This document shows, in pieces, positions 28,680 through 43,097 of a stretch of 64,000 nt of DNA. A program made the position numbers and the translations under genes. The first letter of the stretch is position 1. Each line of letters opens with the position of its first letter. The notes beneath the pieces are model-generated. The model saw only the letters and a list, made by a program, of their open reading frames with translations. It was not told the origin of the DNA and did not search any database. Origin of the DNA: Burkholderiales bacterium (GTDB lineage: Bacteria > Pseudomonadota > Gammaproteobacteria > Burkholderiales > Nitrosomonadaceae); contig JABTUQ010000004.1 in the NCBI GenBank assembly GCA_015075225.1, forward strand, positions 1-64,000, written 5' to 3'.

Positions 28680-29217
28680 CTAAAACGCGATGCCCTCGCT
28701 TAGGATATTGATTGCGCCGACGAGATCGGCGTTTTCTTCAAAGCCACACTCGATGCACTCAAACTTGGCCTGCGTCTGCCGGTTGTCTTTCGACACATGA
28801 CCGCAGCACGGACAGGTTTGACTGGTGTATTGCGGCGGCACGGCGACGACGAAACCGCCATTCCATGCTGACTTGTACTCAAGCTGTCGCCGAAACTCGA
28901 ACCAACCTGATCGAGAATCGAAGATCTCAAGCCGGACTTCTGTTTCACGTGCTTGCCGTGCTGTTCGCTGTTGCCCTGATCGAGTTTGATGCCTTGCGGA
29001 TAGCGGAAGCTATCTGAAACGCCTTTTTTCTTGAAGCGCGGGAAATCGGCACGCTTCTCGAAGAAGTTCTTGTAGGCGCGTTCCAGATTCTTGAGCGCCT
29101 GTTGCAAGGCCAGCGTCTTGTTGTAGACGTACCGACACGAACCGGCAAATCGGCGCGAGGGTGCTGCTGTTCGCCGTTGAGCTGTAGCTCGAATCGATAG
29201 GCTTGAAGACGTTGCAT
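28680..29217 (-). pseudogene. tnpB: TnpB (IS605 OrfB) remnant with internal deletion and frameshifts
   Basis: TnpB is an RNA-guided nuclease of IS200/IS605 elements. The fragment starts [18 protein letters not shown], shifts frame, and continues [19 protein letters not shown] with [20 protein letters not shown]. After [11 protein letters not shown] it jumps to [13 protein letters not shown], losing most of the RuvC-like middle. A second frameshift near 28907 (one G missing after SILDQ) leads to [18 protein letters not shown] and the zinc-ribbon [20 protein letters not shown] with [20 protein letters not shown]. The C-terminal zinc finger is therefore intact but the nuclease core is not. About 180 codons remain, against roughly 370-400 normally. 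Confidence 0.88.
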
Positions 29218-29229
29218 GTCGCAGTATAG

Positions 29230-29656
29230 TTTTGGTCTATGGAAGAAACAACGACATTCGGCGCGGACGACACTGTGTTTTTTAACATCGCATGTCCATT
29301 TGGTCTTTGTGGCGAAATATCGGCGAAGTATTCGACTCCAGCAGCTATCGACAGGCTGCGCGAACTGTTTGCTGGCAAGGTTTGCAATGACTTTGAGGCG
29401 CAACTGGTCGAAATGGACGGCAGAGCGCGACCATGTTCATTTGCTGGTCGGCTATCCGCCGAAAGTTCGGTATCAGCTTTGGTTAATGTTTGAAAGGCGC
29501 ATCCAGTCGCGTGCTGCGGAAAGAAAGGCCGGACATCGCCAAACGCTTCTACAACGCGGGCGCTGTGGTCGCCTTCCTACTTCCGCATCCTCTTGCGGCG
29601 GCGCTCCGATCAGCATCATTCGTCAATACATTGAGCAGCAGGAGGCGCCAACTTAA
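29230..29656 (+). pseudogene. tnpA: TnpA (IS200-type Y1 HuH transposase) remnant, frameshifted
   Basis: TnpA is the single-strand DNA transposase of IS200/IS605 elements. Parts of one protein are spread over all three plus-strand frames. HVHLVFVAKYRRS is followed by a piece with RLRELFAGKVCNDFEAQLVE, then the HuH motif DHVHLLVGYPPKV, a piece with SRVLRKERPDIAKRFY, and finally GGAPISIIRQYIEQQEAP with the catalytic Tyr. At least three or four indels separate them, so no active protein can be made. It is divergent from tnpB with a gap of about ten bases. Confidence 0.85.
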
Positions 29657-29760
29657 CGGCAGAGAAGGAGTCCTGCGGACTCCGCGCCATCCATCCTCGA
29701 CCTGAACGCCGGGGCTTTCCGCGCTAACTGGTAAAACAGGCAGGTAAATGTTGCGTGGGG

Positions 29761-32939: not shown

Positions 32940-33013
32940 TGGAGCGGGTGAAGGGAATCGAACCCTCGTATGCAGCTTGGGAAGCTACCGTTCTACCATT
33001 GAACTACACCCGC
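32940..33013 (-). tRNA. tRNA-Gly(CCC)
   Basis: A 74-base minus-strand tRNA with acceptor GCGGGTG, D-arm GTTCAATGGTAGAAC, anticodon loop TTCCCAA (anticodon CCC, reading GGG), T-loop TTCGATT and an encoded CCA (32940-32942). It resembles E. coli glyU closely. It sits between the protease module and the accessory region, but its 3' end faces away from that region. Confidence 0.95.
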
Positions 33014-33232: not shown

Positions 33233-36004
33233 ATGAACGCAGTAGAAATCGAACAAGCCATTACCAGCCTGGCCAATGCAGCCTTTGACCATGAAAATTT
33301 CCCCTATGATTTTCTGGCTGCTTTCGGCAACAAGGACACCACACTCAAGCGCCTGCGCGCGGGCGTATCGAACAAATCCGATCTCGGTGGAGTGTTGCAA
33401 ACCAGCAACATCCACATCGCAGTGGCCCCACCGGGAGCAGTCACAACAACACTGACAGCGCTCAGAGCCAGCCCCGCCACCACCCGTTACAAGGCCAAAT
33501 TCATTCTGGCAACCGATGGCGAAACCCTCGAAGCCGAAGAACTGGACAGCGGAGACACCATCGCCTGCGCCTACCCGGATTTCCCCGACCACTTCGGCTT
33601 CTTTCTGCCGCTGGCGGGTATTTCCATCGTCCGGCAAATCCGCGATAACGCTTTCGACATCCGCGCCACCAGCCGCCTCAACCGCCTGTATATCGAACTG
33701 CTAAAAGATAATCCTGACTGGGGCAATGCCGAACGCCGCCCGGAAATGAATCACTTCATGGCACGGCTGATCTTCTGCTTTTTTGCCGAAGATACCGACA
33801 TTTTCCACAGCAGCGGCCTCTTTACTGCCACTCTCGAACAGATGAGCGCGCGCGATGCCAGCAACACCCACGCTGTTATCAGCGAAATCTTCCGCGCCAT
33901 GAACACCGCCATCGACCAGCGCAGCCAGGCCAGCCTGCCACGCTGGGCGGACATCTTCCCTTACGTCAATGGTGGCCTGTTTTCCGGCAACGTAGCCGTG
34001 CCGCGCTTTTCCAGAATCGCTCGCAGCTACCTGTTGCACATCGGCCAGCTCGACTGGACCCAAATCAACCCGGACATCTTCGGCTCCATGATCCAGGCCG
34101 TGGCCGACGACGAAGAACGCGGCGCACTCGGCATGCACTACACCAGCGTGCCCAACATCCTCAAAGTGCTCAACCCGCTGTTTCTGGATGATTTGCGCGA
34201 AAAACTGACCGAGGCGGGTGACAACAAGCTCAAACTGCTCAATTTGCGCAAGCGCCTCGCCCGCATTCGCGTATTTGATCCGGCGTGTGGTAGTGGTAAT
34301 TTTCTGGTGATTGCCTACAAACAACTGCGCGAAATTGAACACACCATCAACGAACGCCGCGATGAAAAAGGCCAGAAATCCGAAATTCCACTCACCAATT
34401 TTCGCGGTATCGAACTGCGCGATTTCCCCGCCGAAATCGCCCGCCTCGCCCTCATCATCGCCGAATACCAGTGCAATGTTCGTTACCTCGGGCAGCGGGA
34501 AGCACTGGCGGTTTTCCTGCCGTTGAGTCAGGACAACTGGATCACCTGCGGCAACGCCCTGCGGCTGGACTGGCTCAGTATCTGCCCGCCCACCGGCACC
34601 GGCATGAAACTGCAAGGCGATGATCTGTTTGCCGCCCCGCCAGAACACACACCCATTGATTTTGAAAACGAAGGCGGAGAAACCTACATCTGCGGCAACC
34701 CGCCGTATCTGGGCAGCACCTGGCAAAGCGCCGAACAAAAAGCTGAACTACAAACGCTGTTTGAGGGCCGTGCTAAAAACTGGAAGTCGCTGGATTATGT
34801 GGCGGGCTGGTTGATCAAGGCAGCGGATTATTGTCGCTATACGCCCGCCATGGCCGCCTTTGTTTCCACCAACTCCATTTGCCAGGGCCAGCAAGTCCCC
34901 ATCCTCTGGCCGCTGATCTTCGCCCAGGGTAGCCAGATTGCCTTTGCCCACACCAGTTTCAAATGGGCCAACCTGGCCGCGCATAACGCCGGGGTGACGG
35001 TGGCGATCATCGGCATCAGCAATCAGCCGTGCACCCCGCGCCGTCTGTTTGCGCTGGATAACGCGGGCGAAACCATGGAACGCCAATGCGAATACATCAA
35101 CGCCTATCTGGTGGCCGGGGCGGATGTGATCGTGGAAAAGGCAGTGCGCCCTTTATGCGGACAAACAGAAATGAGTTTCGGCAACAAACCCGTGGACGGT
35201 GGCCATTTGCTGCTGTCGCACGATGAAGTGCAAGCCTTGGGGCTGAACGCCGCCCAGCACGCTCGTTTCATTCGCCGTATCTACGGCTCGGCCGAGTTTA
35301 TTCGTGGATTAGAACGCTATTGCCTGTGGATTGAAGATGCACATCTGGAAGAAGCGCAAGCCATTCCCGCCATAGCTCAACGTATCGAGGGCGTACGTGC
35401 TATGCGCCTGCAAAGCCGCGACAAAGGCGCCAATGACATGGCGACACGGGCACATCAGTTCCGGGAGATGTATTCTGGGGTGCAATCAACTATTATCGTC
35501 CCTCGCGTTTCCTCCGAATCACGTAAATATTTGCCTTGCGGTTATGAATCTGTCGGAACCATTGTTGCAGATGCAGCCTTCGCCCTCTACGACGCGCCCC
35601 TCTGGAACATGGCCCTTATCGCCAGCCGCCTGCATCTGATCTGGATCGCCACCGTCTGCGGCAAGCTGAAAACCGATTTTCGCTACTCCAACACCCTCGG
35701 CTGGAATACGTTTCCCGTACCCACCCTGACCGAGAAAAACAAGACTGATCTCACCCGCTGCGCCGAGAACATCCTGCTCGCCCGCGAAGCCCACTTCCCC
35801 GCCACCATCGCCGATCTCTACAACCCGGACACCATGCCAGACAACCTGCGCGCCGCCCACGACCACAACGACGAAGTGCTGGAACGCATCTACCTCGGCC
35901 GCCGCTTCAAAAACGACACCGAACGGCTGGAAAAACTGTTTGACCTGTATACCAAAATGACTGTCAAACAGAACAAAAAAACAACTTCACCGGCGGTTGA
36001 TTGA
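33233..36004 (+). CDS. Class I adenine DNA methyltransferase of the MmeI-like type, no visible nuclease lobe
   Basis: A 923-residue protein. The SAM-binding motif DPACGSGNF is at residues 349-357 and the catalytic NPPY is at 489-492, the N6-adenine methyltransferase order. A C-terminal region (LYNPDTMPDNLRAAHDHNDE, then FKNDTERLEKLFDLYTKMT) matches MmeI/type IIL enzymes, preceded by a probable target-recognition region (about 620-830). MmeI proteins have an N-terminal PD-(D/E)xK nuclease; here the first 300 residues (with RYKAKFILATDGETLEAEEL) show no recognisable D-E-x-K set. It may therefore be modification-only and rely on a nuclease in trans, such as the GIY-YIG protein 5.3 kb downstream. 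That link is inference. No clear ribosome site precedes the ATG. Confidence 0.85.
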   Translation: MNAVEIEQAITSLANAAFDHENFPYDFLAAFGNKDTTLKRLRAGVSNKSDLGGVLQTSNIHIAVAPPGAVTTTLTALRASPATTRYKAKFILATDGETLEAEELDSGDTIACAYPDFPDHFGFFLPLAGISIVRQIRDNAFDIRATSRLNRLYIELLKDNPDWGNAERRPEMNHFMARLIFCFFAEDTDIFHSSGLFTATLEQMSARDASNTHAVISEIFRAMNTAIDQRSQASLPRWADIFPYVNGGLFSGNVAVPRFSRIARSYLLHIGQLDWTQINPDIFGSMIQAVADDEERGALGMHYTSVPNILKVLNPLFLDDLREKLTEAGDNKLKLLNLRKRLARIRVFDPACGSGNFLVIAYKQLREIEHTINERRDEKGQKSEIPLTNFRGIELRDFPAEIARLALIIAEYQCNVRYLGQREALAVFLPLSQDNWITCGNALRLDWLSICPPTGTGMKLQGDDLFAAPPEHTPIDFENEGGETYICGNPPYLGSTWQSAEQKAELQTLFEGRAKNWKSLDYVAGWLIKAADYCRYTPAMAAFVSTNSICQGQQVPILWPLIFAQGSQIAFAHTSFKWANLAAHNAGVTVAIIGISNQPCTPRRLFALDNAGETMERQCEYINAYLVAGADVIVEKAVRPLCGQTEMSFGNKPVDGGHLLLSHDEVQALGLNAAQHARFIRRIYGSAEFIRGLERYCLWIEDAHLEEAQAIPAIAQRIEGVRAMRLQSRDKGANDMATRAHQFREMYSGVQSTIIVPRVSSESRKYLPCGYESVGTIVADAAFALYDAPLWNMALIASRLHLIWIATVCGKLKTDFRYSNTLGWNTFPVPTLTEKNKTDLTRCAENILLAREAHFPATIADLYNPDTMPDNLRAAHDHNDEVLERIYLGRRFKNDTERLEKLFDLYTKMTVKQNKKTTSPAVD

Positions 36005-36145
36005 TGGAATCATGCGCTGCATCATCGTGGCCTGTACCGAAAGCAGGAATACGGATATCCGGGTGACTATTCGGGCAGGAAGAAGGAATTTTTGCGTTTG
36101 AAGATCCATCGCCGAATACACTTGGTACAACCGCTATAGACAAAA

Positions 36146-36721
36146 ATGACAAGAAAGAACCCAAAGGGTAACGAAGCTCCCACCTACGGAGAAGCAGATT
36201 TGCCCAATAAAAAAATTATTATTATCGCTGGCCCCAACGGCGCCGGAAAAACCACCTTTGCACGTTCCTTTTTACCTGCCGAGGCCGGATTGCTACGTTT
36301 TATCAATGCCGATTTAATTGCAGCCGGGCTATCGCCCTTTATACCGGAAGCAGCTGCCATCAAAGCCGGACGGCTAATGCTGGAAGAAATCCGGCAATGT
36401 GTGCAACAAGGTGAAAGTTTTGCTCTGGAGACGACTCTTTCTGGCCTGGGTTATTTGCAGCATATCGAGCAGTGGCGCTTGCTGGGCTATCAGGTAAGCT
36501 TGTTTTTCCTGAGCTTGCCCGATGCAGAAACGGCGATTGCCCGTGTGGCCGAACGAGTACGGCAGGGTGGTCATGATATTCCCGAGCCTGTCATTCGCCG
36601 CCGTTTCACAGCAGGCAAACGAAATTTTATCCAGCGTTACCGCAATCAGGTGAGCGACTGGGCACTTTACGACAATGCTGGCAATATGCCTATATTGCTG
36701 GAATGGGGAGAAAACACATGA
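36146..36721 (+). CDS. Zeta-toxin-like P-loop kinase
   Basis: A protein of up to 191 residues with Walker A GPNGAGKT at 29-36, followed by INADLIAAGLSPF, FALETTLSG and a VIRRRFTAGKRNFIQRY segment. These match the zeta-toxin/PezT-like family, whose members phosphorylate UDP-sugar or other small substrates and act as toxins or regulators. The first ATG at 36146 lacks a ribosome site; a TTG at 36200 (LPNKKIIII) sits seven bases after GGAGA and gives the short N-terminus usual in relatives, so it may be the real start. The next gene overlaps it (ATGA), as in a TA pair with the partner second. Toxicity is inferred. Confidence 0.8.
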   Translation: MTRKNPKGNEAPTYGEADLPNKKIIIIAGPNGAGKTTFARSFLPAEAGLLRFINADLIAAGLSPFIPEAAAIKAGRLMLEEIRQCVQQGESFALETTLSGLGYLQHIEQWRLLGYQVSLFFLSLPDAETAIARVAERVRQGGHDIPEPVIRRRFTAGKRNFIQRYRNQVSDWALYDNAGNMPILLEWGENT

Positions 36722-36912
36722 ACAAACCCGATATTTCACAAGCCAGAAATCCGGATCTCCGTGCCTCACTGATCGCCCTGCAGCGTGCGGCAGAAATGGC
36801 ACGCCAAACGGCGATACAAACCAATACCGCCATCGTGCTGATACAGGATGGTAAATTGGTAAAAATTACCGCACAGCAATTGCGGGAGATGGCGTGTATG
36901 GACAACGCCTGA
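36718..36912 (+). CDS. Small partner of the zeta-like kinase, putative antitoxin
   Basis: A 64-residue protein starting MNKPDISQARNPDLRASLIA. It shows an Ala-rich amphipathic stretch (LQRAAEMARQTAIQTNTAIV) then a short LIQDGKLVKITAQQLREM end. Its ATG overlaps the kinase TGA (ATGA), so translation is coupled. Small proteins with this N-terminal pattern often follow kinases of this kind, but I know of no assigned name. An antitoxin role is suggested only by size, coupling and position. A longer reading from 36703 exists but is less likely. Confidence 0.6.
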   Translation: MNKPDISQARNPDLRASLIALQRAAEMARQTAIQTNTAIVLIQDGKLVKITAQQLREMACMDNA

Positions 36913-37184
36913 ATGGCAAGTACCAAGTGGTGACTTCTGGGCAATCTTCCACTTTGCCTTCCCAAATGTACACCAGCGACGACGGCCACGCCAGCTTCAT
37001 CTTCGGATAGAGGGCGACAGTATCTGGCTGGATCAGCTGAAATTTCGAGCTGTTCCAGACCGCCAAACAGAACATTTCTCTGCATGCAAAAAATATCTTT
37101 GAAGATAGGGAGTTACGTCAGGATTCAGTTTGAACCATGTTACACTTATATTTTCTAATATATTTTATTTGTATGAGGTGTGCC

Positions 37185-37412
37185 GTGTCGCAAATCACGC
37201 TTTATCTTGATGACGAAATCCAGACGCTGATTGAGCAGCGTGCCAAAGCCAGCGGACTTTCCAAAAGCCGTTGGGTGGCTGAATTCATTACCAAATATGC
37301 CGCGCAAGAATGGCCGCAGGACTGTCTGGAGCTGGCGGGGCGTTTTGCCGATTTTCCGCTGCGCGAAGAAACGCCCCCACTACCTGCTGATACATCGCGC
37401 CTGGAATTCTGA
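37185..37412 (+). CDS. Ribbon-helix-helix (CopG-like) antitoxin, VapB-type
   Basis: A 75-residue DNA-binding antitoxin. The GTG at 37185, six bases after GAGG, gives the family start MSQITLYLDDEIQTLIEQRA with KASGLSKSRWVAEFITKY (ribbon-helix-helix), and a C-terminal LAGRFADFPLREE that probably wraps the toxin. An ATG 12 bases upstream is possible, but relatives start at SQITLYLD. The upstream stretch is AT-rich and may hold the autoregulated promoter. It is followed nine bases later by the PIN toxin. Confidence 0.85.
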   Translation: MSQITLYLDDEIQTLIEQRAKASGLSKSRWVAEFITKYAAQEWPQDCLELAGRFADFPLREETPPLPADTSRLEF

Positions 37413-37421
37413 GCACCAAAC

Positions 37422-37826
37422 ATGCTGATTCTGGATAGTAATACCATCAGTTATTATTTTCGCGGAGATCCGCATGTGGTGCCGCATTTGCAGGTACAAC
37501 GTCCACAGGATGTAGCTGTACCCGCCATTGTGGAATACGAACTACGCTACGGCTTGCTGCGTTTGCCGCCCGACATTGCCGCGCCACGTCTGGCTGCGCT
37601 GACTACCCTGCTGCTGCCCATGCAAAAATTGCCTTTCGACAGCGAATGCGCCGACCATGCTGCACGCATTCGAGCAATGCTGGAGGCAGCAGGTAATCCT
37701 ATTGGGCCGCACGATATTCTGATTGCCGCCACAGCCTTGCGCCATGGCGCTGTGCTGATCACGCGCAACGTGCGTGAGTTTTCCCGGGTACCGGGTTTGC
37801 AATGGATAAACTGGCATGAGGATTGA
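37422..37826 (+). CDS. vapC: PIN-domain ribonuclease toxin, VapC-type
   Basis: A 134-residue PIN nuclease. The acidic residues expected at the metal site are visible: Asp5 in MLILDSNTISYYFRGD, Glu in VPAIVEYELRYGL, and Asp in IGPHDILIAATALRHGAVL. VapC toxins cleave tRNA or rRNA. It forms a standard pair with the RHH protein just before it. The motif LDSNTIS has Ser where the usual form is LDTN, a mild change that leaves Asp5 in place. Confidence 0.87.
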   Translation: MLILDSNTISYYFRGDPHVVPHLQVQRPQDVAVPAIVEYELRYGLLRLPPDIAAPRLAALTTLLLPMQKLPFDSECADHAARIRAMLEAAGNPIGPHDILIAATALRHGAVLITRNVREFSRVPGLQWINWHED

Positions 37827-37997
37827 GCCAATCCACACACAACAAACGCCATACCGGAGCAGAAGTACAAGAAGTGATCAATCACCTCACTGCATTAAGG
37901 AGAAGCCGATTTATTCCATCTTCATGACATGGTGACCCAGTTCCATTGCCATCCCGATTATTGACATACGAATTTCTTTAATGTCACAAATCCGCCG

Positions 37998-38061
37998 TTT
38001 TCTGAAATAAAACTTGTACGAACACCATTATTTGACATATGATTTCCGTTATTTCAGAAAA
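37998..38061. promoter_or_regulatory. Inverted repeat upstream of the Fic gene, putative operator
   Basis: TTTTCTGAAATAA (37998-38010) and TTATTTCAGAAAA (38049-38061) are perfect 13-base inverted repeats, 38 bases apart and ending about 19 bases before the Fic start. A direct near-repeat TTGACATAYGA occurs at 37961 and 38032. This may bind an autoregulator or form a hairpin in the message; no regulator was recognised next to it. Confidence 0.5.
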
Positions 38062-38079
38062 ACAGCATGTTTTTGATAT

Positions 38080-39213
38080 ATGGATATAGTAGATTTCCAG
38101 GCTGGCGATTATGAACATCGCTATGAGTACAAGGCGTTTGTCCCTGCGCTGATTTGTCATGAATGGGTGATTGCTGATGCAGAGTTGACCGCACTGCTTG
38201 GCCGCGCAGATCGTGCGCTGGGGGAGTTGAATGCGTTTAGTCAGCTGATTCCCGATATTGATTTCTTCATCCGGATGCATGTTGCCAAGGAAGCCACGCA
38301 ATCCAGCCGGATTGAGGGTACGCAGACAAATATCGAGGATGCTTTCAAGGATATCAACGACCTGAAACCTGAAGAGCGGGACGATTGGACTGAGGTTCAG
38401 AACTACATCCGGGCAATCAATTTTGCTATCGCCTCCCTGGAAACACTGCCATTATCATCGCGCTTGCTGCGCCAGACCCATGCACAATTGCTGCAGGGGG
38501 TTCGGGGTGAGCATAAACAGCCGGGCGAGTTCCGGGTTAGCCAGAACTGGATAGGGGTCAGCTTGAAACATGCTGCCTTTGTACCGCCACACCACGAACG
38601 GGTGCCTGATTTGATGAGCGATCTGGAGAAGTTTCTCAACACCGGTGAGCATTTTGCACATCCGCTGATTCGTATTGCCATTGCGCATTATCAATTTGAA
38701 ACCATACATCCGTTTCTGGATGGTAACGGCCGGCTAGGACGGCTGATGATTTCGCTCTATTTGGCATCTGCAGGGCTGCTACATAAGCCGGCACTGTATC
38801 TATCCGATTATTTCGAACGTAACAAAACGGCTTATGTGGATCATCTGATGGCTGTTCGCCAGGGCAATCACCTGCGGGCCTGGCTGATTTTTTTCCTGTA
38901 CGGCATCGAGGAAACTGCGCGTGCTTCGGCTGCGGTGTTTCGTGCTGTGATCGGGTTAAAGCAGTGTATCGAGCGGGATGTGTTACCCCGTTTCAGCGCC
39001 CGGCGGCAAAACAATGCGCATGAGCTGATGCGGCACCTGTATGCGCGCCCCGTGATTGATATCAAATGGACGACAGACCTCATTCAATCTTCAACCAATA
39101 CAGCAGCCGCATTGATTGCGGATATGGTTGATTCCGGCGTGCTGATCGAAGTTACCGGGCAGCACCGCAATCGCCTGTTTGTGTTTAAAGACTATCTCGA
39201 TCTTTTCAAATAG
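38080..39213 (+). CDS. Class II Fic family adenylyltransferase
   Basis: A 377-residue Fic protein that would transfer AMP (or a similar group) from a nucleotide to target proteins. The catalytic motif HPFLDGNGRLGR occupies residues 210-221. The N-terminal inhibitory helix motif SSRIEG (75-80; S-x3-E-G) marks class II, in which the enzyme is self-inhibited. A C-terminal winged-helix region (about 315-377) includes SSTNTAAALIADMVDSGVLI. It starts without a good ribosome site and ends one base before the helicase start, so it is probably transcribed with it. Target unknown. It may be a toxin-like element or an integral part of the defence operon. Confidence 0.92.
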   Translation: MDIVDFQAGDYEHRYEYKAFVPALICHEWVIADAELTALLGRADRALGELNAFSQLIPDIDFFIRMHVAKEATQSSRIEGTQTNIEDAFKDINDLKPEERDDWTEVQNYIRAINFAIASLETLPLSSRLLRQTHAQLLQGVRGEHKQPGEFRVSQNWIGVSLKHAAFVPPHHERVPDLMSDLEKFLNTGEHFAHPLIRIAIAHYQFETIHPFLDGNGRLGRLMISLYLASAGLLHKPALYLSDYFERNKTAYVDHLMAVRQGNHLRAWLIFFLYGIEETARASAAVFRAVIGLKQCIERDVLPRFSARRQNNAHELMRHLYARPVIDIKWTTDLIQSSTNTAAALIADMVDSGVLIEVTGQHRNRLFVFKDYLDLFK

Positions 39214-39214
39214 C

Positions 39215-41281
39215 ATGATGATGAAATCCACTCCCTCCATTTCTGTCACTTACGCGCAAAACGGCCGCTCGGCCAGATCCAACGAGCTGGGGATGCGCCC
39301 GATGCAGGAGCGTGTTTTCGAGCGGCGCGGAGAGCAGTATCTGCTGATCAAATCGCCGCCAGCTTCCGGCAAGAGCCGGGCGCTGATGTTTATTGCACTG
39401 GACAAGCTGCACAACCAGGGGCTGAAGCAGGCCATCATCGTGGTGCCGGAGAAGAGTATCGGTGCCAGTTTTGCCAATGAGCCGCTGACCCGATCCGGTT
39501 TCTGGGCGGACTGGATGGTGATTCCGAAATGGAATCTGTGCAATGCACCGGGGACAGATGATGGCGGCAAGGTCAATTCGGTCGGCGCATTTCTTGAAAG
39601 TGATGACAAGGTGCTGGTTTGCACGCATGCCACTTTCCGTTTCGCGGTGGACAAGTTTGGTGTGGCAATGTTTGATGGCCGCCTGATTGCGGTGGATGAG
39701 TTCCACCATGTTTCCGCCAACCCGGACAACAGGCTGGGCGCGCATCTGGGAGAATTCATCAACCGGGACAAGGTGCATATTGTGGCGATGACTGGTTCCT
39801 ACTTCCGGGGCGATGCGGAAGCCGTGCTGACCCCTGCTGACGAAGCCCGGTTTGAAACGGTCACCTATACCTATTACGAGCAACTCAGTGGCTATGCGCA
39901 TCTGAAACAGCTCGATATTGGCTATTTCTTCTATTCCGGTTCCTACATTGACAGCATTCTCAAGGTGCTCGATCTAGCCGGGAAAACCATCATTCATATC
40001 CCGAATGTGAATTCGCGCGAAAGCACGAAAGACAAGATCAGAGAGGTGGAACATATCATCGAGGCACTGGGGGAATGGCAGGGGGCCGATCCGGTCACCG
40101 GGTTCCAGCTGGTCAGGACAGCGGATGGCCGGTTGCTCAAAATCGCCGATCTGGTGGAAGACGACCCGGCCAGGCGGGAGAAAGTATCCGCCGCGCTGAA
40201 AGATCCGGCACTCAGGCTTCACCGCGACCATGTGGACATCATCATCGCGCTGGGGATGGCGAAGGAGGGGTTTGACTGGATCTGGTGCGAACACGCGCTG
40301 ACGGTGGGTTATCGCTCCAGCCTGACCGAGATTGTGCAGATTATTGGCCGCGCCACCCGCGATGCACCGGGCAAGATCCGCACCCGTTTCACCAATCTGA
40401 TCGCCGAGCCTGACGCCTCTGCACAGGTTGTTACCGAGGCGGTGAACGATACGCTCAAAGCCATCGCGGCCAGTTTGTTGATGGAGCAGGTGCTGGCGCC
40501 CCGCTTCGAATTCAAGCCAAAGAATTCAGCCAGCAGTCCGCAGGCAGGGTTTGATTATGGCGAGCAGGGCTATCAGCCGGATCAATGCAATGTGGGTTTC
40601 AATCACGAAACCGGACAATTCCAGGTCGAGATCAAGGGATTGAGCGAGCCGAAAAGCCCGGAAGCCAGTCGCATTTGCCAGCAGGATCTGAACGAGGTGA
40701 TTGCCAGTTTCGTGCAGGACAAAACGGCGATCGAGCGCGGGTTGTTCGATGAAGAGCTGGTGCCGGAAGAACTGACACAGCTGCGCATGGGCAAGATTGT
40801 CCGCGAAAGATACCCGGAGCTGGATGCGGAAGATCAGGAGGCGGTGCGCCAGCACGCTATTGCCGCGCTCAATCTGACGCAGCAGGCCAGACAGTTTGTG
40901 TCCGGAGATGGCAATGGCATGGGCGAACCTGTCGCCAATACGGCCCTGATCGAGGGGGTACGCAAATTTGCCATGGATGTACGCGAACTGGATATTGATC
41001 TGATTGATCGCATCAACCCGTTCAGCGAGGCGTATGCCATTCTGGCCAAGGCGATGAGCGAGGAAAGTTTAAGACAGGTGGCTGCCGTGATCGGGGCAAA
41101 ACGTACCAGCCTGACGCCGGAAGAAGCCAGGGAGCTGGCGGTTCGCGCTGTATCTTTCAAAAAGGAACGGGGGCGCGTGCCCTCTCCCACTTCGGCCGAT
41201 GCCTGGGAAAAACGCATGGCAGAAGGTGCTGCCGCGTTTATGCGCTTCAAAAAAGAGGGTAGCTATGGCGAACGAACCTGA
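39215..41281 (+). CDS. SF2 (DEAD/DEAH-like, ResIII-type) helicase
   Basis: A 688-residue helicase-like protein with Walker A PPASGKS (48-54), Walker B AVDEFHH (159-165, a DEFH box), motif III MTGSYF (192-197) and motif VI VQIIGRATRDAPG (374-386). A C-terminal region of about 300 residues has no nuclease motif I can see. Unlike classic type III Res subunits it thus lacks its own endonuclease and may pair with the following GIY-YIG protein, which it overlaps by 17 bases. Start codons ATG at 39215, 39218 and 39221 run together; any may be used. Together with the methyltransferase this suggests a restriction-like system. Confidence 0.88.
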   Translation: MMMKSTPSISVTYAQNGRSARSNELGMRPMQERVFERRGEQYLLIKSPPASGKSRALMFIALDKLHNQGLKQAIIVVPEKSIGASFANEPLTRSGFWADWMVIPKWNLCNAPGTDDGGKVNSVGAFLESDDKVLVCTHATFRFAVDKFGVAMFDGRLIAVDEFHHVSANPDNRLGAHLGEFINRDKVHIVAMTGSYFRGDAEAVLTPADEARFETVTYTYYEQLSGYAHLKQLDIGYFFYSGSYIDSILKVLDLAGKTIIHIPNVNSRESTKDKIREVEHIIEALGEWQGADPVTGFQLVRTADGRLLKIADLVEDDPARREKVSAALKDPALRLHRDHVDIIIALGMAKEGFDWIWCEHALTVGYRSSLTEIVQIIGRATRDAPGKIRTRFTNLIAEPDASAQVVTEAVNDTLKAIAASLLMEQVLAPRFEFKPKNSASSPQAGFDYGEQGYQPDQCNVGFNHETGQFQVEIKGLSEPKSPEASRICQQDLNEVIASFVQDKTAIERGLFDEELVPEELTQLRMGKIVRERYPELDAEDQEAVRQHAIAALNLTQQARQFVSGDGNGMGEPVANTALIEGVRKFAMDVRELDIDLIDRINPFSEAYAILAKAMSEESLRQVAAVIGAKRTSLTPEEARELAVRAVSFKKERGRVPSPTSADAWEKRMAEGAAAFMRFKKEGSYGERT

Positions 41282-42452
41282 TCTCGATGAACTGGCAGCC
41301 GAACTGGCTGATTTTGCCCCGCCGGAGAAACAGGCGGGACACTCGGCGCGCGAGGAACGCATTATTGCCGGATTCGAGGAGATCCAGCGGTTTGTGGGAC
41401 AGCATGGCCATCTTCCACGACATGGCGAAGATGGTGATATTTTCGAGCGGCTTTACGCCGTGCGGCTGGATCGCCTGCGTGCGCTGGAGGAATGCCGGGC
41501 ATTGCTGGCTCCGCTCGATCATCAGTGTTTGCTGAACACCGCTGGCGTACAGGAATCGCAAGGCGACTATTCCCTGACGGATGAAGAACTGTTGAACGAA
41601 CTGGAAGATGCGGCAGATTCAGTTGATATTACCGGGCTGCGCCATGTGCGCTCCCAGGCTGAAATCAGGACTGCGGAGGAGATTGCAGCGCGGTACCCAT
41701 GCGCTGATTTTGAAACATTCTCTCCTTTGTTCAGCCAGGTACAACACGATTTGAAAGCGGGCTCACGGCAGGCACGCCGTTTTATGGGTGATGCCCGGGT
41801 GGATGCGGGTGATTTTTTCATTCTGGGCGGACAAACTGTTTATGTCGCGGAAAAAGGGGAGGAATTCACTACTCCCCAGAATCAGCCGGATGCCCGTTTA
41901 CGGGTGATTTATTCGAATGGCACCGAAAGCAATCTGCTGATGCGCTCGTTACAGCGTGCGTTGAACAAGGACGAAACCAGCCGGAGAATTACCAGAAAGG
42001 AGCAGGGTTCGTTGTTTGGCACGGTGATGGAGGAAGCGGATATTGAAAGCGGCACCATTTATGTGCTGCGCAGCCTGTCGAACCATCCTTTTATTGCCGA
42101 ACACCGCCTGTTGATTCATAAAATCGGCGTAACCGGCGGTACGATTGAAACACGCATCGGCTATGCAGCACTCGATGCCACTTATCTGCTGGCCGGAGTG
42201 GAGATTGTGGCTACCTGGAAATTGGCCGGGATCAACCGCACCAGGCTGGAAGCATTGTTCCACCGCATTTTTGCTCCAGCACAGCTCGACCTGACCATTC
42301 AGGACCGGTTTGGCCACCCGGTCAGACCAAGAGAATGGTTTCTTGTGCCATTCCATATTATTGACGAAGTGGTGAAACGCATTCTGGATGGATCCATTTC
42401 TGATGTGATTTACGACCCGGAAACGGCCAGTCTGGTTAGCCTGCATCCGTAG
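41265..42452 (+). CDS. GIY-YIG nuclease family protein (T5orf172/MUG113-like)
   Basis: A 395-residue protein. The C-terminal third carries a GIY-YIG domain: SGTIYVLRS (I265-Y266), IHKIGVTGG (K286-I287-G288), ETRI with R297, and TRLEALFHRIF with E329. The N-terminus (REERIIAGFEEIQRFVGQHG, then DIFERLYAVRLDRLRAL) looks like a conserved family domain of unknown role. The ATG at 41265 is chosen for its AGAGGGT ribosome site inside the helicase end, giving a 17-base overlap. GIY-YIG proteins cut DNA in repair, homing and some type II restriction enzymes. It converges with the MEKHLA gene, overlapping it by 17 bases. As the only visible nuclease of the set, it is the candidate effector. Confidence 0.85.
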   Translation: MANEPDLDELAAELADFAPPEKQAGHSAREERIIAGFEEIQRFVGQHGHLPRHGEDGDIFERLYAVRLDRLRALEECRALLAPLDHQCLLNTAGVQESQGDYSLTDEELLNELEDAADSVDITGLRHVRSQAEIRTAEEIAARYPCADFETFSPLFSQVQHDLKAGSRQARRFMGDARVDAGDFFILGGQTVYVAEKGEEFTTPQNQPDARLRVIYSNGTESNLLMRSLQRALNKDETSRRITRKEQGSLFGTVMEEADIESGTIYVLRSLSNHPFIAEHRLLIHKIGVTGGTIETRIGYAALDATYLLAGVEIVATWKLAGINRTRLEALFHRIFAPAQLDLTIQDRFGHPVRPREWFLVPFHIIDEVVKRILDGSISDVIYDPETASLVSLHP

Positions 42453-42921
42453 TAGATAGCGCTTCCCACTCCGGGATCAGGGCCGCCTGCCCGTAAAATT
42501 GACCTGTTTCATCCAGCAGGTTCCAGACGGTTGCATGGCGGATCAAAAACCGGCGGCCATCGGCTGCAATGCGGATTCCCGTGTAATCATCGATGTAGCC
42601 ATCGCGCAATACCCGTTCCAGCAGGCGCTCCCGTTCCGTTCGCTCCAGTGGTTCTGCCGACAGGCGCGAGGGCATTCGGGTAAATGCGTCCCGGGTCATG
42701 CCAAATAGCCGCAAGGCGGTCTGGTTGCCGTAATTGAACACCGGATCAGGCTGGGTGCCATGCGAAACCAGCGCGAAAGGCGCCTGTTCCAGCCATGCCA
42801 CGGCCTCACTGGCAGTTAGTTCCGGGTTGAACAAATACCGGCCGGTGCAGCGGCGGTAGCTTTCCTGCAGAATCGCCACGTGACGTGCTGTTTGATCGTT
42901 TTTACTGTCAGATGAATGCAT
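42436..42921 (-). CDS. MEKHLA domain (PAS-like) protein
   Basis: A 161-residue protein with the MEKHLA domain, a PAS-like fold. Marks are FNYGNQTALRLFGMTRDAFT with MPSRLSAEPLERTERERLLE and the C-terminal YIDDYTGIRIAADGRRFLIR with GQFYGQAALIPEW. The ligand and role are unknown; a sensing or redox function is possible from the fold only. The ATG at 42919-42921 is used, with a longer start four residues upstream possible. It converges on the GIY-YIG gene with an overlap and is divergent from thiS. Confidence 0.8.
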   Translation of the reverse strand: MHSSDSKNDQTARHVAILQESYRRCTGRYLFNPELTASEAVAWLEQAPFALVSHGTQPDPVFNYGNQTALRLFGMTRDAFTRMPSRLSAEPLERTERERLLERVLRDGYIDDYTGIRIAADGRRFLIRHATVWNLLDETGQFYGQAALIPEWEALSTTDAG

Positions 42922-43097
42922 GGCTGTGAACAATCTCCATCACCCGGACTGGCACGGTGTTTACCGGGTTCAATGTCGTATGGATCAGGCAGGGTATGCG
43001 CTGATACGGAAGGTTTCCGCCCTACCATCCGGCCAGACCCGCATGCTAGAATAAATCCCTTCGTTTTTGGGCTGCCTTTGGCTATTTTCTGAAAATC

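Follow-up and report, generated by a model that had tools for sequence, protein, structure and literature searches.

In Bacillus subtilis, the DNA methyltransferase DnmA methylates the sequence GACGAG without possessing an endonuclease motif, and its gene is followed by those of a superfamily 2 (SF2) helicase, YeeB, and a T5orf172 protein, YeeC, an order that is conserved among DnmA relatives according to the available parts of PMC7261158 and PMC9973331. A Type I-like system was proposed by Morgan et al. 2009 (cited through PMC7261158). The one mention of DnmA in the available part of PMC12707154 treats it as an orphan enzyme. The names of these families are absent from PMC12839542, PMC12458937 and PMC13092281, only the word methyltransferase occurring in the last. 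Here we describe a gene island of the same kind within a 64,000-nt stretch of a Burkholderiales bacterium of the family Nitrosomonadaceae (contig JABTUQ010000004.1, positions 1 to 64,000; from here: the window). The island encodes, all on the + strand, an MmeI-like adenine DNA methyltransferase, a zeta-like protein with a small open reading frame (ORF), a VapBC-like pair, a Fic protein, an SF2 helicase and a GIY-YIG protein, and all named genes are full-length open frames. Methyltransferase, helicase and GIY-YIG gene (together: the trio) are laid out as follows:

33233..36004, + strand: MmeI-like adenine DNA methyltransferase (DnmA-like), 923 aa, nuclease triad lost (Pfam, phmmer, triad alignment)
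33233..33709, + strand: MmeI_N domain, codons 1–159, without the D-E-K triad; likely a docking part
34613..35749, + strand: exchangeable specificity stretch, about codons 461–839 (NPPY part of the methyltransferase core plus recognition domain), boundaries approximate (absent correlation with helicase history; E. coli alleles)
39218..41281, + strand: SF2 helicase/translocase (YeeB-like), 687 aa (Pfam DEAD, invariant motifs, model and fold comparison)
41265..42452, + strand: GIY-YIG/T5orf172 nuclease-like protein (YeeC-like), 395 aa (Pfam MUG113 and T5orf172, invariant residues)

An initial annotation, made from the letters alone, had recognized these three proteins, including the overlap of 17 bp between helicase and GIY-YIG genes (41265–41281), and all were found again. 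Its further view that the arrangement differs from known systems is not supported: the trio itself is an already described, widespread kind of gene set, since all three components are present in the published DnmA-YeeB-YeeC cluster, for which a model resembling Type I had been put forward (PMC7261158, PMC9973331, as far as available). In the literature searched, which was available in part, we did not meet three other aspects: the slot for extra genes between methyltransferase and helicase, the common history of the inactive nuclease domain and the helicase, and the comparison of E. coli alleles.

The linkage of the trio was followed in two sets of loci. The first consists of the best 80 loci found with the helicase, near relatives with helicases 77–83% identical to that of the window; the second, which may share species with the first, consists of 37 loci from independent genome draws and includes a distant clade with 43–51% helicase identity. 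The GIY-YIG gene directly follows the helicase gene in 80/80 and 37/37 loci, and the methyltransferase gene precedes that of the helicase on the same strand in 77/80 and 36/37, every miss being at a contig end. The conserved co-occurrence that the initial annotation had proposed as a check of its reading is thus observed. First-set loci lacking the methyltransferase at contig ends (L064, L110, L121) were excluded from the gap count given below, and L196 likewise. Methyltransferase genes cut short by the end of a contig or stretch (L059, L063, L067, L076, L104, L123, L176, L182, L183) were counted as present, as were interrupted or shifted ones in L119, L168, L175 and L187, possibly products of decay or sequencing error, where helicase and GIY-YIG genes are still readable. 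Left out of the neighbour count were a fragment (G203), matches at contig ends (G257, G549, G522) and a weak match (G855). The same trio is present in five Fictibacillus-class loci with helicases 44–81% identical to that of the window, and chance association is not a concern, as the genes keep their order in distantly related bacteria.

Helicase matches occurred in 13/369 genomes of the class, 24/398 of the phylum and 4/41 of the genus, the window's own genome being included in each and a few fragments in the class and phylum counts. In the Fictibacillus-class sample there were 8 in 250 genomes, two of them known beforehand and one weak. An MmeI-type methyltransferase lies on the same contig in 12 of the 13 helicase-bearing genomes of the class sample, the 13th match being a 94-residue fragment. 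Protein searches returned at least 8000 candidates each for the helicase and the GIY-YIG protein, so both families are large; helicase matches of 98–99% identity include one Nitrosomonas sp., the window genome itself being Nitrosomonas-like. Of 5426 complete E. coli genomes, 88 contain the helicase with a coverage of 80% or more, and 99 have any match. The helicase also has relatives in 264 plasmid records (154 over at least 80% of the length; 118 of the 264 predicted to be conjugative), and only two phage records gave a match, both partial. E. coli loci L230 and L234 both have a gene with a BRO-N domain downstream of the GIY-YIG gene; its neighbours there are yagL and yagM, with intF in addition in L234.

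The methyltransferase has the complete domain series of MmeI, with MmeI_N, MmeI_hel, MmeI_Mtase, MmeI_TRD and MmeI_C each above the Pfam cut-off, and matches the MmeI structure 5HR4 over residues 89–450 and 485–911 (phmmer E 1.6e-135). We aligned 78 such enzymes linked to the helicase, among them that of the window; as one of the 78 lacks the N-terminus, the triad counts refer to 77. The motif DPxCGxGNF was found in 78/78 and NPP[YFW] in 75/78. As judged from this alignment, the MmeI_N domain is kept but without its catalytic set, because the triad column for D reads Q in 77/77 and that for K reads either G or D in 77/77; the E column is still E in 19/77. In the window's enzyme the domain remains recognizable by Pfam (E 6e-32). 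The observation in the initial annotation that a PD-(D/E)xK motif is missing therefore applies to the catalytic residues, while the domain itself is retained. This is also the outcome for the second condition named there, a clear nuclease fold in the methyltransferase N-terminus that would make the GIY-YIG protein superfluous: by sequence the domain is present, the catalytic triad is not.

MmeI-type enzymes of the class sample from genomes without this helicase served as the unlinked set; of its 18 loci, the 16 with a protein longer than 700 aa were aligned. The full D-E-K triad occurs in 0/77 linked versus 14/16 unlinked enzymes, the latter with the signature D-x9-E-x-K; of the remaining two, one is truncated and the other, L027, lies at a contig end and lacks the signature. 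Independently of the alignment, a loose triad pattern matched 8/77 linked and 15/15 unlinked N-termini, the match in L027 arising by chance. On re-examination, the contig of L027 ends 652 bases past the methyltransferase gene, which is followed by two ORFs that by eye resemble a ParDE pair. Because of the contig end and these ORFs after the methyltransferase, L027 may belong to one more trio, its slot being occupied. L236 (G233 contig 152, reverse strand) is described alike: its triad-less MmeI-like methyltransferase is directly followed by two ORFs that look like a ParDE pair by eye and then by the contig end, and it is probably a trio with a toxin-antitoxin pair in the slot.

The triad-less N-domain of the linked enzymes is nevertheless well conserved. 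Mean identity among the 77 linked enzymes is 75% in the N-domain, 69% in the methyltransferase core, 44% in the recognition domain and 85% in the C-terminal domain, compared to 54%, 55%, 47% and 56% among 14 unlinked enzymes. Despite the absent triad, the PADLOC model REase_MTase_IIG (PDLC03598) scores 961 bits on the window's enzyme, and loci of this kind may for this reason enter counts of Type IIG restriction enzymes.

Distances between the proteins were compared in 69 of the 80 first-set loci, which have all three proteins in full, and in 27/37 second-set loci plus the window. In the 69 loci, helicase and GIY-YIG distances correlate with r 0.72. Windows of 60 residues along the methyltransferase correlate with the helicase at r 0.29–0.59 for starts 1–391 and at 0.30 for start 421, then at −0.03 to 0.07 for starts 451–811 and 0.15 for start 841. 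Saturation may affect part of the fast-changing recognition domain, but the slower windows 451–510 and 811–870 likewise reach only r 0.07. The correlation of the N-domain with the helicase exceeds that of the methyltransferase core by 0.29 (0.16–0.42 on taxon resampling). In the second set, residues 1–450 versus 481–832 gave r 0.73 versus 0.10 (20 sequences) and 0.76 versus −0.02 (8 sequences). Going by these correlations, residues 1–450 of the methyltransferase share the history of the helicase and residues 450–840 do not.

The exchange is seen directly in E. coli. Between four methyltransferase alleles from five loci, helicase and GIY-YIG protein are each 96–99% identical, and the methyltransferase is 91–98% identical over residues 1–160, 83–99% over 161–450 and 86–95% over the C-terminal 77 residues, with only 38–51% in the recognition domain. 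As seen by comparison of these alleles, specificity is exchanged in a Type I-like manner, by swapping a stretch of the methyltransferase gene with motor and cutter constant. Type I systems diversify in this way, through a variable recognition part on a constant motor and cutter.

The helicase scored just above the cut-off of Pfam DEAD (27.9 bits, cut-off 26) and just below that of ResIII (20.9 bits, cut-off 22.5), and its fold class is supported by a structure model and fold comparison. Its start was taken as the ATG at 39218, the ORF list opening at a TTG further upstream. K52, D160-E161, R378 and R381 are invariant in 46/46 aligned relatives. The GIY-YIG protein matches MUG113 and T5orf172 above the Pfam cut-offs; the seven closest relatives are likewise 395 aa long, which supports 41265 as its start. 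Y266, K286, G288, R297, E329 and H333 are invariant in 50/50 aligned relatives, and among them we take the Tyr, Gly, Arg and Glu to be the catalytic residues of the GIY-YIG superfamily. In PADLOC-DB 2.0.0 the best match of the helicase reached only E 0.006, without a good model, and the GIY-YIG protein had no match.

Between methyltransferase and helicase the window contains a series of additional genes, here termed cargo:

36146..36721, + strand: zeta-toxin-like P-loop protein, 191 aa, cargo (Pfam Zeta_toxin 38.1 bits, cut-off 22.3)
36703..36912, + strand: small ORF overlapping the zeta-like gene, possible antitoxin by position; no family match in Pfam, PADLOC and NCBIfam scans
37185..37412, + strand: VapB-like antitoxin, start uncertain, cargo (position ahead of VapC; NikA-like match below cut-off)
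37422..37826, + strand: VapC-like PIN-domain toxin, 134 aa, cargo (Pfam PIN E 7e-21; NCBIfam VapC models below cut-off)
38080..39213, + strand: Fic protein, 377 aa, cargo (Pfam Fic_N and Fic; PADLOC SoFic 382 bits; NCBIfam SoFic 172 bits, under the 550-bit cut-off of the model)

The gap between methyltransferase and helicase is a recurrent slot for varied extra genes, some of them of toxin or defence families. In the first set it measures 14–92 bp in 33/77 loci and 399–7008 bp in 44/77. In the second set it exceeds 200 bp in 17/36, namely in 15/23 near relatives and 2/13 distant loci (Fisher p 0.006, with rows that are not independent in descent). Over both sets, 61/113 loci have a gap above and 52/113 below 200 bp. 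Gaps of such size between helicase and GIY-YIG gene number 0/80 and 2/37. An extra ORF between these two genes was seen in L167 (177 aa) and L193 (96 aa), the sole two such cases among the 37 second-set loci. The wide gaps contain ORFs on the operon strand in 56/61 loci (41 + 15), and the other five have only doubtful ORFs on the opposite strand. In all eight E. coli loci read the slot is empty; on a Sinorhizobium plasmid it holds one 260-aa gene.

A scan of 81 slot ORFs of at least 90 aa and four window proteins (n = 85) gave the following among the 25 most frequent of 48 Pfam families: RhuM 13, DUF1016_N 8, YhcG_C 7, HATPase_c_4 3, Schlafen-AlbA_2 3, PDDEXK_4 2, PIN 2 (one the window's) and ParE 2, and single matches to YobI-ATPase, DUF559, YafQ, AAA_15, Fic (the window's) and reverse transcriptase. 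Thirteen slot proteins, presumably the RhuM group, matched the PADLOC defence candidate PDC-S05 (among the best 25 of 316 families listed). Ten of 20 slot representatives scanned singly had no Pfam family. The initial annotation had considered that the toxin modules may be later insertions or guards. Variable passengers they appear to be, tblastn with the zeta, VapC and Fic proteins of the window having found no match in the slots of 117 other loci; on the other hand, a PIN toxin (L081) and ParE toxins do occur there by Pfam. Fic-like genes were also seen upstream of the methyltransferase in L061, L095 and L173. Toxin and defence genes embedded in restriction-modification (RM) operons are documented, with associations of PrrC, DOC and RhuM (PMC3710099, available part), and our search of the literature on the trio and on such embedded genes found no work that deals with the slot for this family.

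The island is bounded by two chromosomal genes:

32940..33013, − strand: tRNA-Gly(CCC), left flank of the island (ARAGORN, Rfam), retained in two relatives without an intact system
42436..42933, − strand: MEKHLA-domain gene, right flank, outside the system (Pfam MEKHLA)

Chromosomal homology to two relatives starts at about 42463. In one Nitrosomonas relative, G1033, a contig end shows the tRNA-Gly followed by VapB, 92% identical in DNA over 246 bp to the window's VapB-like gene, and another contig end has the VapC block (88% over 454 bp) beside the MEKHLA gene. A 69-bp piece between that block and the MEKHLA gene reads as helicase residues 237–259; in a comparison with 46 sequences, these 23 residues share 65% identity with the best relative (E 8e-6). 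Because VapBC pieces and a helicase scrap lie at the same site, though seen as separate pieces, the trio probably once stood there and was later lost, with VapBC retained. The VapB and VapC pieces at the two contig ends (G1033 contigs 54 and 66, L226 and L217), together with the helicase scrap and an adjacent ORF read by eye as a transposase, are probably a decayed copy of the island. In the window, broken ORFs at 28700–29660 are presumably remnants of an IS200/IS605-type element, as judged by eye from motifs.

We consider a working Type I-like restriction system, split over separate proteins, the most likely reading, with a probability of roughly 0.72, and infer restriction at the window locus on this basis. 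The MmeI-like enzyme would, like its family, use its own recognition domain to bind an asymmetric site and methylate an adenine, and the retained, triad-less nuclease domain would probably be where the restriction partners dock. When unmethylated DNA invades, the SF2 helicase could then be recruited and move along it, and the GIY-YIG protein, whose catalytic positions are conserved, would cut. Exchange of the methyltransferase stretch, as the comparisons above show, changes the specificity with motor and cutter unchanged. The cargo found here (zeta-like, VapBC, Fic) might provide a back-up or merely stabilize the island. The initial annotation had likewise divided modification, translocation and cutting among three proteins; the anatomy and the invariant GIY-YIG residues fit this. 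No restriction was seen in B. subtilis, where transformation and three phages were unaffected by the trio (PMC7261158, PMC9973331, available parts), a result that weighs against a working system. In Vibrio crassostreae, deletions of dnmA and yeeB raised the sensitivity to some phages (Piel et al., cited through the available part of PMC9973331). A broader and doubtful generalization is a modular restriction class with an MmeI-type enzyme, its dead nuclease as dock, a separate motor and GIY-YIG cutter, exchangeable specificity and a toxin/defence slot perhaps held in check by the core.

The conclusion published for B. subtilis (PMC7261158, PMC9973331, as available) was that of an orphan methyltransferase with a restriction relic, in which the methyltransferase is regulatory or a hitchhiker and helicase and GIY-YIG protein no longer restrict. 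The VapB/VapC pieces and 23-residue helicase scrap of G1033 agree with it. Nevertheless, we regard it as unlikely here: the three frames of the window are intact, and catalytic positions invariant in all aligned helicases and GIY-YIG proteins are unexpected of relics. Exchange of specificity on a constant motor suggests a working pair, and variable recognition with both motor and cutter unchanged is hard to reconcile with a relic. Somewhat less probable again is a single abortive-infection unit, in which the RM core would guard zeta, VapC and Fic proteins that harm the cell once the core is blocked. Operon-strand slot ORFs in 56/113 loci, some of toxin or defence families, the Fic stop codon only 4 bases ahead of the helicase ATG and the known guarding by PrrC in a Type I locus (PMC3710099, available part) speak for such a unit. 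However, the cargo varies by locus and the gap is below 200 bp in 52/113, so the core does not need it, and TgvAB inside a Type I operon still protects when restriction by the host system is disabled (PMC11411939, available part). That the methyltransferase cuts alone as a Type IIL/IIG enzyme, with helicase and GIY-YIG gene as unrelated neighbours, is suggested by its best PADLOC label and the presence of MmeI_N but is very improbable given the missing triad in all linked enzymes, the near-complete linkage of the trio and the report that DnmA lacks endonuclease activity (PMC7261158, available part).

If the trio restricts, a widespread defence has been misnamed and its motor and cutter are missed by PADLOC-DB 2.0.0. 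After the negative result in B. subtilis, the intact versions in E. coli, with almost identical motor and cutter and different recognition domains, make restriction directly testable. The slot is in any case a place to seek further defence genes.

Among known systems, DISARM and BREX resemble the island in combining an adenine methyltransferase and a helicase in a defence-like cluster, and the window's enzyme has partial matches to DrmMI (94.7 bits) and PglX among the best 25 of 37 PADLOC matches listed for it. The nuclease of the island, however, is of the GIY-YIG type. Neither DrmA, DrmB and DrmC nor PglZ and BrxC are among the matches listed for the eight island proteins, and the best two PglX models of NCBIfam gave 25–26 bits against cut-offs of 400–500 bits. 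Type I RM systems have a separate HsdS, and their HsdR combines nuclease and motor in one chain. They share with the island the variable recognition on a constant motor and nuclease as well as embedded toxin and defence genes; in the window, by contrast, a single chain carries recognition and methylation, motor and nuclease are separate proteins, and the nuclease is GIY-YIG instead of PD-(D/E)xK, such that neither a separate HsdS nor a joint HsdR is found. The Type IIL enzyme MmeI has the identical five-domain architecture, but its N-terminal domain contains the PD-ExK endonuclease motif (PMC7261158, available part), whereas the triad is gone from the window's enzyme and the linked enzymes have no such site in this chain. 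Compared by description with the available accounts of B. subtilis, the closest likeness is to DnmA-YeeB-YeeC. Differences are the position of the toxin-antitoxin genes, which lie beside the trio in B. subtilis and between methyltransferase and helicase in the window, and the Fic gene, which is not part of the published description consulted. Both loci have an MmeI-like methyltransferase lacking the endonuclease motif, followed in the same order by genes for an SF2 helicase and a T5orf172/GIY-YIG protein, and toxin-antitoxin genes nearby.

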